Of a stretch of 64,000 nt of DNA, positions 6,713-56,811 are shown one piece after another (within the stretch, counting starts at the first letter, position 1; every line of letters begins with the position of its first letter). The DNA lies in the NCBI RefSeq assembly GCF_945873775.1, contig NZ_CAMCEC010000007.1:51296-115295 (forward strand), in the 5' to 3' direction. The notes beneath the pieces were generated by a model, which was given only the letters and a program-made list of their open reading frames with translations, did not search any database and was not told the DNA's origin. Source of the DNA: an uncultured Treponema sp. (lineage in GTDB: Bacteria; Spirochaetota; Spirochaetia; Treponematales; Treponemataceae). A program made the translations under genes and the position numbers.

Positions 6713-6772
6713 AAATTTTCCACTCCCATAAAAAGTCAAGATTAAAACTTCAGTTTTAGGATTGACCTTTTA

Positions 6773-6873
6773 AGTTGTTTCGCAACGAAGTGAGAAACAA
6801 CTGATAATAAGAAAGTTTGCAATGCAAACTTTTAAAGATAAAAACAGACGCTATTTTCGGCTGTTTTTATCTT
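6773..6873. repeat. Cluster of three consecutive palindromes
   Basis: AGTTGTTTC...GAAACAACT (6773-6802); AAAGTTTGCAATGCAAACTTT (6812-6832); AAGATAAAAACAG...CTGTTTTTATCTT (6835-6873). Confidence 0.75.
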
Positions 6874-42550: not shown

Positions 42551-43930
42551 CTAGTTCTTCGCTGTACGCACAACACGGAAACCATAATTGTCGTAGCCTA
42601 AATCTGGGCGCAAACTATTCCGCTTATAAACAGAACAGGAGTCCGCACCAATGACATAACAACCACTACGACTCACGCGGTTAGAACCCGACAATGCACC
42701 AGTAGAAGATGTACTGCCTGATATGCTACTGTTCCAATCCCAGCACCATTCATATACATTGCCGCTCATGTCGTATAGCCCCAACTCGTTTGCTTGTTTT
42801 GTCTTTACTTCATGAGTTCCTTTGGTGCCTGCTTCTGCTGAATTATCCGTGTACCAAGCAACGTCATCAATTGTATCACTTCCTGCATAAATATACTGTG
42901 TGCCGCTTAGTCCGTTTCCGCCGCGTGCCGCATATTCCCATTCAACTTCTGTAGGTAGTCGGTAACCGTTTGCACCAAAGTTACATGTTGCAGCATCCCA
43001 AGTAACATTATTGCCTGAGCTTGAACTTGGCACATTTCCCCACTCATCAGAATTTGTAGAACCGTTTATCGAATAACAAGGCGTAAGTCCTTCTTCTATT
43101 GAACGCTTGTTGCAGTAAACAATTGCGTTATACCAGATTATTCTGCCAATCGGATTGTTATCCGAAGTTCCAATTGCAGTTGCCAAACTACTTGGAAGAC
43201 TTCCTATTACAGTCTCGTATTCTCCCCGCGTAACTTCATGGTCGCAAATATAAAAATTGCTTATAGTTACAGCTCTTCCATCAATAAATACTTCGCTATT
43301 TGGAGCTGCTTCTGTTATTGTTGCGCCTTCTACAAACACAAAGCCGTCTGTAGACCACTTTGCATAAAGTGTAACATCGTTTTTTTCAAATACATTAATA
43401 GAAGCATTATTGTAAACTGGGTCGCTGTCTATGCTGGTCGCCCAGCCTTGAAATGTAGAGCCGTCTTTTGTAAATAAATTTTCTGAAAGGGATTGGGAAG
43501 TTCCGTAAGTAAAAATTTGAGAAGACATTGTTCCAGTTCCGCCGTTCGAATCAAAAGTTACAGTAAATTTATCATGAAGCGTTACAGTGCAAGGAGAAGT
43601 TTCTCCAGCAACAACTGTTACTTCTGAATCTCCAAGGCCAGACAAAACATTATTTTTATAAGCCTTGACTTCAACCGTGTAAGTTTCTGGGCTGACTTCT
43701 AAAAACTCCAGTACCCCCCCCGAAGAACCGGTTTCACTCTGAATAACATCTTCATTTAACAAAAGTTCTACTATATAAATATCAGCTTTTGTACTGGAAC
43801 TAATTTCACGTCCGCCGCCCGGCAAGGCAACACGAATTGAGCCGCCCTTTTCAGAGCCGCCGCTCACGTTCACGCAGGACGCAGCCACAAATAAAAACGC
43901 AAATAAAGCCGGAACAATAAATTTCTTCAT
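42551..43930 (-). CDS. Lipoprotein with InlB-type repeat and C-terminal SUMF1/FGE-sulfatase domain; candidate DGR variable protein
   Basis: MKKFIVPALFAFLFVAASC lipobox; VTFDSNGGTGTMSSQIFTYGTSQSL...FQGWATSIDSDPVY; GYRLPTEVEWEYAARGG...LGLYDMSGNVYEWCWDW...GFRVVRTAKN. Confidence 0.85.
   Translation of the reverse strand: MKKFIVPALFAFLFVAASCVNVSGGSEKGGSIRVALPGGGREISSSTKADIYIVELLLNEDVIQSETGSSGGVLEFLEVSPETYTVEVKAYKNNVLSGLGDSEVTVVAGETSPCTVTLHDKFTVTFDSNGGTGTMSSQIFTYGTSQSLSENLFTKDGSTFQGWATSIDSDPVYNNASINVFEKNDVTLYAKWSTDGFVFVEGATITEAAPNSEVFIDGRAVTISNFYICDHEVTRGEYETVIGSLPSSLATAIGTSDNNPIGRIIWYNAIVYCNKRSIEEGLTPCYSINGSTNSDEWGNVPSSSSGNNVTWDAATCNFGANGYRLPTEVEWEYAARGGNGLSGTQYIYAGSDTIDDVAWYTDNSAEAGTKGTHEVKTKQANELGLYDMSGNVYEWCWDWNSSISGSTSSTGALSGSNRVSRSGCYVIGADSCSVYKRNSLRPDLGYDNYGFRVVRTAKN
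42584..42673 (-). other. Candidate DGR-type variable region at the 3' end of the lipoprotein gene
   Basis: SRSGCYVIGADSCSVYKRNSLRPDLGYDNY: 24 of 30 codons end in C or T; followed by GFRVVRTAKN-stop. Confidence 0.45.
43714..43721 (-). repeat. Homopolymer G8 (coding strand) within the lipoprotein gene
   Basis: Coding TCTTCGGGGGGGGTACTGGAG. Confidence 0.98.
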
Positions 43931-43963
43931 AAAAGACCTCCAATCAAAATGTATACGTTTAAA

Positions 43964-44099
43964 GATTGTCGGATTGAATCCGACAATGACAAAGGCACGG
44001 GACTGATAAAACAAATCCAGCAATGACAATTTTCCTAACATTTTCATGCCATTATCAAACTTGGATTTTTCTGTCATTCCCGCGCTTGACGCGGGAATC
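43964..44099. repeat. Cluster of dispersed palindromic units in the 5' leader of the lipoprotein gene
   Basis: GATTGTCGGATTGAATCCGACAATGACA (43964-43991) and TGTCATTCCCGCGCTTGACGCGGGAATC (44072-44099), with a partial AATCCAGCAATGACA between. Confidence 0.85.
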
Positions 44100-44470
44100 T
44101 CTGTTATAACCAACTTTCCTAGAATCTAAATTAAATTATACTGAATAAATTTCAAAAAACAACTTTTTGGCGAAAATTTATTGAGAATTTTTGTTTTGTT
44201 GACTTAGTGAAGTTAGCTTAAAACATGGGAATTTTCCTTAAGTAAATACGTTATTTTTCATTGAAAAATAGACTATTTGCTTAGCAACAAATTCGTGCGG
44301 TTTGTCATGATTTAGGGCGGACTGCATGAATAACAAACCGAGACTTCTTTTACAAAAAAACAAAAAATTATTTAAAGCTCCTTGTCATGTGCCATGACTT
44401 GTAAAACTATTCTAAAAAGTAACGAAAATTATTATTTCAAACTGATTGTTTTCAAACAGTAGAAAATTTA

Positions 44471-44479
44471 CCCCCCCCC
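44471..44479. repeat. Homopolymer C9 tract in a long intergenic region
   Basis: AATTTACCCCCCCCCTGTCAT. Confidence 0.98.
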
Positions 44480-52019: not shown

Positions 52020-54485
52020 TTATCCAATGCTACGGAATTTTCTGTTGAAGTCTTCTATTTCTGCCCCGGAAATCGGCTTGGAATAATAGTAGCCCTGAAT
52101 ATAGTCGCAGTGGAAAGTCTTAAGCTTTTCATTCTGCCACTGATGCTCAACACCTTCAACAGTAAGCTTCATTGCAAGCGAATGAACAAGACGCACAATG
52201 TTCTTTATAAAGTCGCCTTTTTCGTTTGAAAGATAATTGTCCACAAGCGACTTGTCGATTTTTACAACATTAATCGGCAGGAACGTAAGATAGCTAAGAG
52301 AAGAATATCCAGTTCCAAAGTCGTCCAAGGCAAGAGAAATTCCGCGCTTTACAAATTCATTCAAAAGTTTTGAAACTGCTTCCTTATTTGAAATAAACAG
52401 GCTTTCTGTAATTTCAATGCAGATAAGTTCTGGCGGAATATTATAACGTTTCAAAAGCTCTTCAAGAAAATCAACATAATGAATATCCGAAACTTGGCTG
52501 TAGGAATAATTTATTGAAACTTTGTACAAAGGGATTCCGTGCTCACGCCATTCAGCCATCTGCCTTACAACTTTTTCTGTAAGGATTCTGTCAATTTTTA
52601 TAATCTGTCCAGTTTCTTCTGCAATCGGAATAAACTGCGCCGGAGAAACTTTGCTGTTCTTGAGCCTCATAAGAGCTTCGTACCCGTGGATTTCTCCAGT
52701 TTCAACATCAATCTGCGGCTGGTACGCAACCCAAATTCCGTCGTTTGCAATAGCATCGTCAAGGATTCTTGAAATGCGGTTGTTTTCAAATATACGGTCG
52801 CGCATTTTTTCGTTAAAGAAAACAGTCTTGTTCTTGCCGGAATTTTTTGCACGGTAAAGCGCAATGTCCGCATTTTGAATCATATTTTCCATTTCATCAT
52901 CAGAAGAATTTACAATTCCAAAGCTAGACTGAATATGGATTTTATTTTCGGCATAGTTAATCGGACTTTCAAAAATTGTTCTAAGCTCCTGAATTTCTAT
53001 GGAATCTTCATTCAGCTGCTTTTCAAGATAAAGCACAAGGAATTCATCTCCGCCGAACCGCGAAACAAAAATGTCTCTTCCGGCAGAATAAGCCTTGAGC
53101 CTTGAAGAAATTGTCTTTAAAACAATGTCGCCGCAAGCATGGGAATAAAAGTCATTTATGTTTTTAAAATCGTCAATATCAAAAAGAACAAGCGAAAACT
53201 TTTTTCCAGACTTCTGAATATCGTTGAACACAGCCTGCGCCTTGAATCTGTTCGGCAAATCTGTAAGCGAATCGTGTCCAAGCATATATTCCATTTTTAA
53301 GTTTGAACAACGAAGCTCGTGCGAATTTTTTACTTCAGCAATTATAAGAATCAAAGAAACCGCAATGAAAATAAAAAGCGAAACAGCGACTCCGATTATT
53401 CCAAACAAAATTCCGCGGCTGTTTTTTTGCATCTGATCCTGAATATTTACAAACACGGAATTCAGCGGAAAAGCGGAAGCCTTTAAGTTGCGCTCTTCAA
53501 TTACCTTGTAGTCAAAGATAAATTTTTCGTCTTTTATCCTTTGGAACGGAACATATTTTTCACCGTCAATAATATCAAGAGCCATTTTTGCGGCAAGAGC
53601 GCCGGCTTTTTCGTAGTCAACCATTTTTCCGCCAAGAAAACCGAATCCCACACCGTTCGCATTGTGGCTAAACACAGGCGCGGAAGTGTTCTTTACAATG
53701 AAGTCCGACTGCTCTTCCATGGAATATTTTTTGCCGCTGGAATCTTGTGAAGCTCCCAAATAAAACACAATAGTTTTGTCATCCAATGCGGAAAGCTGCT
53801 CGGCAATCTGCGCTTTTGTAAATGCGGAAGTATCAATTCCTGAAAGCTCTACATTCGGAATCCTTTCACCGGCGTTTATAAAAATATTGTAGTTTTCGTA
53901 ACCAGCATCGGTCTTGTCATAAATGGCGACATAATGCTCTGCGGAAGGGAAAAGCTTTCTTGCAAGTGAAATTGTATCTGACAAAAATCTTGTTGTGGCA
54001 ATTCCCCAGAAATTCTTTTTTTCGTAAAGACGCTCTGCCCTGATGTTGCTTTCTATGCAAAAGAACACAATTGGAATTCCTGAGAAAAGCGTATCGTAGT
54101 TGCGCTCAACAAAGTTGCATGAATTATTTCCGCTTACAAGAACAGCATCAAATTTTTTGTTCTGCTGCAAAAATTCAACACGTTCCTTTAAAAATTCTGG
54201 AAGCGTTTTATCATAAAAATCATCTGGCTCAAAATATTCAACATCGACATTTATGTTGTTCTTTAGGAATACATTTCTTATTCCTTTTTCCTGAAGATCA
54301 ACAACATAAGAGTTCGGCATTGAACTTAGAAAAAGAACATTCGCCCTTGGATTTTTTAGCTTAGTACTTATAAGCGCAGAAGACAAACGGTTTTTATATA
54401 GAAAGAAACAGAGCGAAAGAACACTGCTCAAAAGAAGAAAAGACGCAATGCCCATCAGAATAGAAAAAGATCTTTTTTTTGCCAT
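52020..54485 (-). CDS. Membrane GGDEF-EAL protein with periplasmic ABC-substrate-binding-like sensor domain
   Basis: RFGGDEFLVLY; GYEALMRLKNSKVSPAQFIPIAEETGQI; DDFGTGYSSLSYL; N-terminal NVLFLSSMPNSYVVDLQEKGIRNVF...FDAVLVSGNNSCNFVER between two TM segments. Confidence 0.9.
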   Translation of the reverse strand: MAKKRSFSILMGIASFLLLSSVLSLCFFLYKNRLSSALISTKLKNPRANVLFLSSMPNSYVVDLQEKGIRNVFLKNNINVDVEYFEPDDFYDKTLPEFLKERVEFLQQNKKFDAVLVSGNNSCNFVERNYDTLFSGIPIVFFCIESNIRAERLYEKKNFWGIATTRFLSDTISLARKLFPSAEHYVAIYDKTDAGYENYNIFINAGERIPNVELSGIDTSAFTKAQIAEQLSALDDKTIVFYLGASQDSSGKKYSMEEQSDFIVKNTSAPVFSHNANGVGFGFLGGKMVDYEKAGALAAKMALDIIDGEKYVPFQRIKDEKFIFDYKVIEERNLKASAFPLNSVFVNIQDQMQKNSRGILFGIIGVAVSLFIFIAVSLILIIAEVKNSHELRCSNLKMEYMLGHDSLTDLPNRFKAQAVFNDIQKSGKKFSLVLFDIDDFKNINDFYSHACGDIVLKTISSRLKAYSAGRDIFVSRFGGDEFLVLYLEKQLNEDSIEIQELRTIFESPINYAENKIHIQSSFGIVNSSDDEMENMIQNADIALYRAKNSGKNKTVFFNEKMRDRIFENNRISRILDDAIANDGIWVAYQPQIDVETGEIHGYEALMRLKNSKVSPAQFIPIAEETGQIIKIDRILTEKVVRQMAEWREHGIPLYKVSINYSYSQVSDIHYVDFLEELLKRYNIPPELICIEITESLFISNKEAVSKLLNEFVKRGISLALDDFGTGYSSLSYLTFLPINVVKIDKSLVDNYLSNEKGDFIKNIVRLVHSLAMKLTVEGVEHQWQNEKLKTFHCDYIQGYYYSKPISGAEIEDFNRKFRSIG

Positions 54486-54634
54486 AACACTGCCTCCATA
54501 AAAAGCCAAAGTAAAATCTTACTTTAGAATAGCTTTTTAAGCCGCTTTTACGGTTTGGATAAACCCTAAATGAAAAACGGCAGTCGATATGCAATTTTGC
54601 AATGCAAATTTGCAAACTAGTTATACATAGCTAA

Positions 54635-54663
54635 ATTATAGACCACATAAATTGTTTTTTCAA
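54635..54663 (-). promoter_or_regulatory. Predicted promoter for the GGDEF-EAL gene
   Basis: TTGAAA-17 nt-TATAAT on the minus strand. Confidence 0.7.
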
Positions 54664-54669
54664 CAGCTA

Positions 54670-54678
54670 CCCCCCCCC
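54670..54678 (-). repeat. Homopolymer G9 (minus strand) 6 nt upstream of the predicted -35
   Basis: Minus strand GTGGGGGGGGGTAGCTGTTGAAAAAACAATTTATGTGGTCTATAAT. Confidence 0.95.
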
Positions 54679-54731
54679 ACGAAGATTTTTTTAACAAAAA
54701 CAGCTGAATTTTTGCATTTTAAGGCAGAAAT

Positions 54732-56543
54732 TTACAATAAAATTTTTATTAAGTCCGCTCTTCCAGCCTGAATCAATGCTTCTTTTACAAACTGGGCATT
54801 TTCTTTTTTGTTAAACTGAAGCAATGCGCGCTGAAGCCTTCGTTCGTGTCCACCGCGGGCAACATAGACTTCCTTAAAGCTTCCATCTGAATTTTTTTCA
54901 TGCGGATTCAGTCCTGTATAATACATGCAAGTTGCAAGGCTTCCCGGTGTTGGATAAAAATCCTGAACTTGGTCTGGAACAAAGCCAGTTTTCTTTAAAT
55001 AAAGGGCGGTTTCAATTGCCTCTGGAATTCCAGCTCCCGGATGCCCCGCAATATAATAAGGAACGAGATACTGCTTAAGTCCAAGCTTCCTGTTTGCCTT
55101 TGCGTATTCCGCAGAAAATTTTTCATAGACGGCGTGAGTGCTTTTGCACATAAGGGCAAGAACTTTGTCGCTGACGTGCTCGGGAGCAACTTTAAGCTGC
55201 CCGGAAACATGATGCTTGCAAAGCTCATACAAAAATGCCTTGTCTTTATCAAGCATAAGATAGTCAAATCGTATTCCGCTTCTTATAAAAACCTTTTTTA
55301 CATTCGGAAGTGAACGAAGCTTTTTTAAAAGCTCTATGTAATCTTTGTGGTCGGCTTTTACATTCGGGCACGGAGAAACTCCAAGGCAATCTCGGTTTTT
55401 GCACGCGCCGTTTTTTTTCTGAAACTCACAGGCATCGCTTCTGAAATTTGCAGTAGGGCCTCCAACATCATGAATGTATCCTTTAAAGTCAGAATCCTGC
55501 GTCATTTTTTTTGCTTCTGACAAAAGGCTTTCGTGGCTTCTGGCTTGAATGCGCCGCCCCTGATGAAAAGTTATCGCGCAAAAACTGCAAGCCCCAAAAC
55601 ATCCTCGGCAGCTCGTAAGACTAAATTTCACTTCGGAAAGAGCAGGAATCCCTTTTTTTCCATTTGAAGCAGCAACGTCATACATCGGATGCCACTTGCG
55701 TTCAAAAGGCAGCTCATAAATCGAATCAAATTCAGCTTGCGAAAGAGGAAACGCAGCTTTTTCCTGAATTACAAAACGGCTTTCAGAAGGCTCGGCAAGA
55801 ACGCTTCCGTTTATTGCGTCTGTATTTTCTTCCTGAATTTTATATGACAAGGCAAACTTGGCTTTGCTTTCCGGCGTGTTTTTGCTTATCTCTTCAAATG
55901 AAGGAAGCATTATAGCGTCAGCGGGAACTTCATCTTTTTTGCCAGTGAACCAGCAAGTTCCTCTTACGCCACGGATTTTACGCGCGTAAATTCCTTTATC
56001 AAGCTGAGATGCAATTTCAAGAAGAGCTTTTTCGCCCATTCCGTAAATAAGAAGGTCGGCTTTTGAATCCAAAAGAACAGAATGCTTTACTGTGTTTGAC
56101 CAGTAGTCATAATGGGCTGTGCGGCGCAGGCTTGCTTCAATTCCGCCGACAATCACATTTACGCCCTTGTATGCTTCGCGGATTTTTGCCACATACTGAA
56201 TTACAGCTCTGTCCGGGCGATGGCCTTTTTCGCCTCCGTGGGAATAAGAATCTTCCGAACGAGGCTTGTTGTTCGCAGTATAATTTGAAACCATGCTGTC
56301 CATTGCGCCTGCTGTTACAAGAAACGCAAGACGAGGCTGCCCAAGAACTTTAAAGCTTTCCGCAGATTTCCAGTCCGGCTGGCACAAAATTCCTACAGAA
56401 TATCCGCGGGATTCCAAAAGCCGTCCCAAAAGAGCCGCTGCAAAAGACGTATGGTCAACGTAAGCGTCCCCGGAAACAAAAACAAAATCAAGCTGACCTA
56501 TTCCGCGCTCCTCAAGGTCTTTTCTGCAAACTGGCAAAAACAT
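54732..56543 (-). CDS. YgiQ-family radical SAM protein
   Basis: SCRGCFGACSFCAITFHQGRRIQARSHESLL; IEASLRRTAHYDYWSNTVKHSVLLDSKADLLIYGMGEKAL; FYPTPGSLATCMYYTGLNP. Confidence 0.92.
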   Translation of the reverse strand: MFLPVCRKDLEERGIGQLDFVFVSGDAYVDHTSFAAALLGRLLESRGYSVGILCQPDWKSAESFKVLGQPRLAFLVTAGAMDSMVSNYTANNKPRSEDSYSHGGEKGHRPDRAVIQYVAKIREAYKGVNVIVGGIEASLRRTAHYDYWSNTVKHSVLLDSKADLLIYGMGEKALLEIASQLDKGIYARKIRGVRGTCWFTGKKDEVPADAIMLPSFEEISKNTPESKAKFALSYKIQEENTDAINGSVLAEPSESRFVIQEKAAFPLSQAEFDSIYELPFERKWHPMYDVAASNGKKGIPALSEVKFSLTSCRGCFGACSFCAITFHQGRRIQARSHESLLSEAKKMTQDSDFKGYIHDVGGPTANFRSDACEFQKKNGACKNRDCLGVSPCPNVKADHKDYIELLKKLRSLPNVKKVFIRSGIRFDYLMLDKDKAFLYELCKHHVSGQLKVAPEHVSDKVLALMCKSTHAVYEKFSAEYAKANRKLGLKQYLVPYYIAGHPGAGIPEAIETALYLKKTGFVPDQVQDFYPTPGSLATCMYYTGLNPHEKNSDGSFKEVYVARGGHERRLQRALLQFNKKENAQFVKEALIQAGRADLIKILL

Positions 56544-56550
56544 TGTTCTG

Positions 56551-56811
56551 TTACGCAAGCCGCTGAACTGATTCTGCTGAAGAAAAATCAATCAGAAGAT
56601 TAGGAACATAAAGATCTTCATCAAGAGAATCCCAGTGAATTCCTATTCCATTTCCGCTAAGCTCATAATTATCAAGTTCCAGTTTTGCAGCATTGTCAAG
56701 TTTCGGAAAATAGGCTTTAGGCACTGAAAGCTGTCTTCCATCAACAAGTGAAATCCAAATATTAGAATCATCAAACCAAACCGATTTTGCCCTAGCATTT
56801 TGTTTAAGCAT
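56551..56811 (-). CDS. DUF2442-type small protein
   Basis: ARAKSVWFDDSNIWISLVDGRQLSVPKAYFPKLDNAAKLELDNYELSGNGIGIHWDSLDEDLYVPNLL. Confidence 0.8.
   Translation of the reverse strand: MLKQNARAKSVWFDDSNIWISLVDGRQLSVPKAYFPKLDNAAKLELDNYELSGNGIGIHWDSLDEDLYVPNLLIDFSSAESVQRLA

Follow-up and report, generated by a model that had tools for sequence, protein, structure and literature searches.

The G9 locus and the question it raises

Can a homopolymeric G tract lying just upstream of a promoter tune, in a heritable way, the dose of an enzyme that handles the second messenger c-di-GMP? The question is raised by a run of nine Gs (G9; 54670..54678 on the minus strand, read 54678-54670) that precedes a gene for a GGDEF-EAL protein of 821 aa (52020..54485, minus strand, ATG at 54485; open reading frame and domain search) in the 64,000-nt stretch of DNA from a gut Treponema that we analysed as a whole, hereafter the window. 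The first-pass annotation of this stretch had proposed heritable switching of the c-di-GMP signal, which is probably too strong a word, because changes by degrees are to be expected from a tract that lies outside the core promoter. The reading that we favour, at a probability of roughly 45%, is that the G9 is a slippage-prone simple sequence repeat which would tune, and not flip, the GGDEF-EAL promoter.

Anatomy of the tract, the promoter and the gene

On the minus strand the order is A7-TCTTCGT-G9-TAGCTG-TTGAAA-17 nt-TATAAT, with TAGCTG (54669-54664) between the tract and the -35 element TTGAAA (54658..54663), and the -10 element TATAAT (54635..54640) after the 17-nt spacer. In a promoter scan of the 4.3 kb around it, TTGAAA-17-TATAAT was the top sigma70-like site (11/12), with a predicted transcription start site (TSS) at ~54628. 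Sequence, promoter scan and domain search thus agree with the arrangement given in the first-pass annotation, and its placing of the tract at the position of an UP element is borne out as well: the G9 is a homopolymer that stands next to a sigma70-type -35 at a gap of 6 nt and, counted from the predicted TSS, occupies ~ -50 to -42, where contacts of the RNA polymerase alpha-CTD with UP elements fall. Further 5', the A/T blocks A5 (54713-54709), T5 (54700-54696) and A7 (54692-54686), together spanning 54686..54713 on the same strand or ~ -85 to -58, are possible UP-like A-boxes, candidates by analogy with Helicobacter pylori sabA (PMC4081817). That the TSS and the promoter activity are predictions weakens the case for tuning. 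The layout of porA and tp0126, with poly-G between -35 and -10, is absent at the GGDEF-EAL promoter, where the tract lies outside the core. Placing the G9 within the spacer of some other promoter was tried and rejected, the only possible upstream hexamers giving a spacer of 19-22 nt and a poor -10, and a fold test for a DNA hairpin around the tract gave no signal (z=-0.4).

The protein encoded downstream matches EAL (E=4e-66), GGDEF (E=4e-31) and ABC_sub_bind (E=8e-7); the ABC_sub_bind-like region lies between two hydrophobic segments and is followed by the GGDEF and then the EAL domain, so that this part of the membrane-bound protein is probably a periplasmic sensor. The catalytic motifs of both domains are intact in the translation (GGDEF, EALMRL, DDFGTGYSS, IDKS, EGVE, QGYY), and the inhibitory RxxD I-site is absent at its usual place. 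Next upstream, in the same orientation, is a gene for a YgiQ-type radical SAM protein (54732..56591, minus; open reading frame and domain search), which ends ~53 nt before the tract.

The tract exceeds chance expectation

The window has 5 matches to G8, where 0.16 would be expected, and none of 100 shuffles reached this number. By a first-order Markov estimate for the window, G/C runs of at least 8 showed a roughly twenty-fold excess (3 seen, ~0.17 expected), whereas A/T runs of at least 8 were in deficit (14 seen, ~38 expected). The G9 is a simple repeat beyond chance length at a putative regulatory site. Genome-wide counts, obtained from pattern searches and fetched stretches, gave ~60 tracts of G8 or longer in 2.59 Mb. 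Promoters scoring at least 11/12 occur at 4.7e-5 per strand-base, so that any one tract would be followed by such a promoter within 15 nt with p ~7e-4; two such tract-promoter pairs were seen, at the GGDEF-EAL gene and at a gene for a methyl-accepting chemotaxis protein (MCP), against ~0.04 expected by a simple estimate uncorrected for intergenic enrichment.

These counts bear on the first alternative, that the G9 is a slippage-prone run which is simply tolerated in front of a strong constitutive promoter and whose length may vary with no useful effect on transcription. We consider this somewhat unlikely. Many G tracts of the genome do stand at sites without an obvious promoter role, as this explanation would have it; on the other side, the lack of any excess of A/T runs in the window argues against a general tolerance of long runs. 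The comparison with related species, given below, bears on it in both directions.

A second G9 of the window (44471-44479, minus strand) precedes a weaker promoter-like site, TTGAAA-16-AATAAT (10/12), by 15 nt and a lipoprotein-like open reading frame by 357 nt.

Conservation of the tract in related species

The locus is kept in two sister species, G084 (MAG S8M_St_45; L115) and G238, which is probably T. succinifaciens (DSM 2489), each species, like our own genome (G000), being represented by one assembly. In the order G000, G084 and G238, the tract has 9, 9 and 10 Gs, the -35 hexamer reads TTGAAA, TTGAAA and TTGTAA, and the A-run upstream of the tract is A7, A7 and A8; the -10 hexamer and the 17-nt spacer are the same in all three. 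Bases have changed on either side of the tract, which argues that the run has outlived its flanks, and this retention of tract and promoter amid changed flanking bases favours the tuning reading. The distance from tract to -35 is 6, 6 and 3 nt and that from A-box to -35 is 22, 22 and 18 nt, so no fixed geometry is conserved, which weakens the tuning reading, and the differing spacing between tract and promoter is also what a tolerated run would be expected to show. A flanking inverted repeat with a compensatory change between G000 and G084 was considered and dropped, being missing in G238.

The same layout is found at the gene of a dCache MCP, a chemotaxis receptor, the only other place in the genome where a G tract closely precedes a consensus promoter: a G10 stands 15 nt before TTGACA-16-TATAAT. 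Across the same three species this tract has 10, 10 and 8 Gs and lies 15, 15 and 12 nt upstream of the promoter, and the sequence upstream of it is unrelated in G238. The recurrence of the layout in three species, with that flank replaced, again favours tuning. Together, the persistence of the GGDEF-EAL tract between diverged flanks and the existence of a second signalling gene with a replaced upstream flank exceed what neutral decay would lead one to expect, and this counts against a merely tolerated run. Beyond the three-species clade, the strict pattern of a tract followed by a consensus promoter was found in only two other genomes among 196 Treponema genomes, with 0 matches for the reversed control. 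This rarity favours tuning too, and the restriction of a tract at the GGDEF-EAL position to one clade of three species is in keeping with a bystander.

More distant GGDEF-EAL homologues (33-61% identity) weaken the tuning reading: in 26 of 28 the upstream stretch scanned (up to 500 nt) has no G run of at least 7, and in the remaining two, from the species G077 and G060 (L094, L095), the homologous gene has a G9 at its ribosome-binding site (GGTGGGGGGGGGTATTTTATG, directly before the start codon region). Slippage at that place would affect the site itself or its spacing, a suggestive arrangement, although both genomes are rich in G9 tracts and the location may therefore be due to chance. Contig 7 of G060 starts with a run of over 30 Gs that probably arose as an artefact of sequencing and that inflates the poly-G counts for G060.

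Length variation of poly-G tracts in the clade

Comparison of G000 with G084 gave 19 pairs of orthologous tracts (flank score at least 200, tracts of at least 8 in both searches), of which 6 differ in length, and at one promoter with the tract in its spacer the three species share hexamers and flanks but have G8, G10 and G9. Poly-G tracts thus appear to change length in this clade, with a residual possibility of assembly error for G000 and G084 because both are draft assemblies. Of 17 tracts of at least eight Gs that were tested in T. pallidum, 76% were length-variable (PMC7864442). Slippage in both settings favours the tuning reading, which is weakened by the GGDEF-EAL tract itself having the same length in the nearest sister G084 (9 and 9, one assembly per species).

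Within coding sequence, a tract near the start of a gene for a 597-aa probable outer-membrane protein has G8 in our genome (L037 2032) and G9 in the sister species (L235 496), a change that would shift the reading frame there.

Precedents and proposed mechanism

The nearest precedent is sabA of H. pylori, in which a T-tract beside the -35 shifts the axial alignment of core promoter and A-boxes, and thereby the binding of the RNA polymerase alpha subunit, with graded output; A- and C-tracts placed there likewise changed output (PMC4081817). The GGDEF-EAL promoter matches it in parts and order, with a homopolymer directly upstream of a sigma70-type -35 and putative A-boxes further up, which would likewise make a dial on the promoter of a single gene, and that such a homopolymer acts as a rheostat in sabA favours the same at the GGDEF-EAL gene (PMC4081817). 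The two systems differ in that sabA has a T (or A) tract and encodes an adhesin, with the effect of length demonstrated, whereas here a G tract and a signalling enzyme are known from sequence.

By this likeness sabA is a closer precedent than the tpr genes of T. pallidum, to which the first-pass annotation had compared the locus. The comparison holds for the idea, since tprE/G/J/L and tp0126 belong to the same genus and have promoter-associated poly-G of similar length, but not for the geometry: in tprL transcription starts 4 nt downstream of the poly-G, which overlaps part of the -10, and in tp0126 the poly-G is in the -35/-10 spacer (PMC7864442), so that these tracts lie at the start site or -10 or in the spacer, not upstream of the -35, and the genes encode outer-membrane proteins. 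Nor is a phase-variable c-di-GMP enzyme a new idea. It is already known from Clostridioides difficile, whose c-di-GMP phosphodiesterases pdcB and pdcC are phase-variable through site-specific promoter inversion (PMC9286219; reviewed in PMC11868660); heritable, reversible variation of such an enzyme would in both cases coordinate many traits, whereas the means differ, inversion of promoter DNA there and repeat slippage here.

In the mechanism we propose, slippage would add or remove single Gs at the G9, and the altered count would change the distance, the rotation and the local DNA shape between the core promoter and the putative A-boxes upstream. The changed alignment may in turn modify the contact of the RNA polymerase alpha-CTD and, as for the sabA T-tract, promoter strength. 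The transcript would then traverse a structured leader of the TD-1 type extending as far as the ribosome-binding site; this leader would add a second level of regulation, probably of translation. The output would be the dose of a c-di-GMP-handling enzyme with complete EAL motifs, with a presumed effect on c-di-GMP.

A TD-1-type leader between promoter and gene

While the tract, promoter and gene described in the first-pass annotation all stand, it overlooked this leader, which occupies 54494..54621 on the minus strand, in the 5' UTR, up to the Shine-Dalgarno GGAGG. The leader aligns to the full length of the TD-1 motif (RF03155) and ends at the Shine-Dalgarno, but its middle hairpin exceeds the consensus length and its score of 28.7 bits is below the Rfam gathering score of 64.5 bits, as are those of the other TD-1 elements of the genome (best 58.9). 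The leader was left out of a genus model (R1) made from 11 further Treponema TD-1 elements, with which it scored 55.1 bits (E=1.2e-7); its counterparts in G084 and G238 scored 49-50 bits. The fold z-score of the leader is -2.5. The leader starts ~7 nt past the predicted TSS, which fits the promoter assignment. Only tRNAs reached the Rfam thresholds in the window, and the leader matched TD-1 alone, so no c-di-GMP riboswitch was found in it.

Control could also reside mainly in this leader, acting on translation or mRNA stability in response to a signal, with the G tract a minor element. In all three species the stretch from promoter to ribosome-binding site holds a clear TD-1 homologue, and TD-1 elements are numerous in Treponema, where they precede many unrelated genes and end, as here, at the Shine-Dalgarno (L180-L199). 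A leader layer and a tract layer are compatible with each other, and we regard dominance of the leader as quite improbable.

Some TD-1 elements occur in tandem (for example in G043, at 1384415 and 1384569), and a further conserved hairpin lies 5' of many of them (AAAACTTTGCCTAAAATAGCGTCAAAGTTTT). The window holds another, strong TD-1-type element at 6724-6841 (minus strand), which scores 115 bits with the genus model and goes unreported at the Rfam gathering threshold.

The weakest alternative follows Neisseria meningitidis nadA, where a repeat upstream of the core promoter likewise changes the spacing of upstream elements, although it is a tetranucleotide TAAA repeat and acts via operators of the NadR repressor and IHF (PMC2791445). 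That the G tract sets the spacing between operators of a repressor or bending protein on either side, with an effect depending on regulator and signal, is favoured by the nadA case and by the hexamers that flank A-box and tract in G084 (CAGTTG/CAACTG) and G000 (CAGCTG/TAGCTG). It is very improbable all the same, because this pair does not recur in G238 (CAGCTG/ATATTG) and the locus has no known regulator or operator.

Tuning of the promoter by tract length remains our preferred reading. The tract, the promoter-like elements, the leader, the gene and their conservation in three species can be read directly from the sequences, and the observation has proved sound, with more support than when it was first made: it is conserved, it has a counterpart at an MCP gene, and it is set in a tract-rich genus. 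If the tract works in this way, control by slippage would extend to the second messenger and the chemotaxis of commensal relatives of T. pallidum, in a genus whose poly-G phase variation is known mainly from the genetically hard-to-study surface proteins of that species, and would bring heritable behavioural diversity without a change of surface antigens. More broadly, we can envisage, as a doubtful generalisation, that in the gut treponemes of the T. succinifaciens group slippage of G tracts upstream of the -35 sets the dose of signalling proteins heritably and by degrees, acting on a c-di-GMP enzyme and on a chemotaxis receptor in place of surface antigens, with the TD-1 layer beneath at the c-di-GMP gene; individual commensal cells would then differ in their motility and chemotaxis settings.

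Poly-G promoters of the spacer class across the genus

A separate class of promoters, TTGACA-N-G7+-TANNAT, has the tract inside the spacer, which is the arrangement of tp0126 and porA. It was found in 30 of 98 Treponema genomes at more than 80 sites, with zero matches in the reversed control. Tracts of G8-G10 in TTGACA...TANNAT promoters stand mostly before lipoprotein-like genes across the genus, and the spacers of 14-17 nt suggest switching of the tp0126/porA type. These promoters offer many testable cases outside the pathogen. Our own genome has the class at other genes, mainly lipoprotein-like ones whose products begin with the leader MRKFAKISAVL and its relatives, and also at a second MCP gene, where a G9 inside the -35/-10 spacer is identical in G238 (the two MCP genes being L033 2079 and L039 1986). 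Its sites there include L041 2017, L042 2013, L048 2055, L056 1972, L057 1994, L058 1975, L063 991, L077 2020 and L035 3279.

Two further kinds of tract were seen in the same genome. A G8 at 43714-43721 of the window (minus strand) falls within the coding region of a secreted SUMF/lipoprotein-like open reading frame (42551-44113), and in-frame tracts of this type recur in many similar reading frames (L032, L038, L044, L047, L073, L076). A repeated genomic element, GCAAGAATGCAGGCTA...G8-TAGTGGAATGG, carries a G8-G9 tract in several copies (L036, L040, L043, L074, L075, L078).
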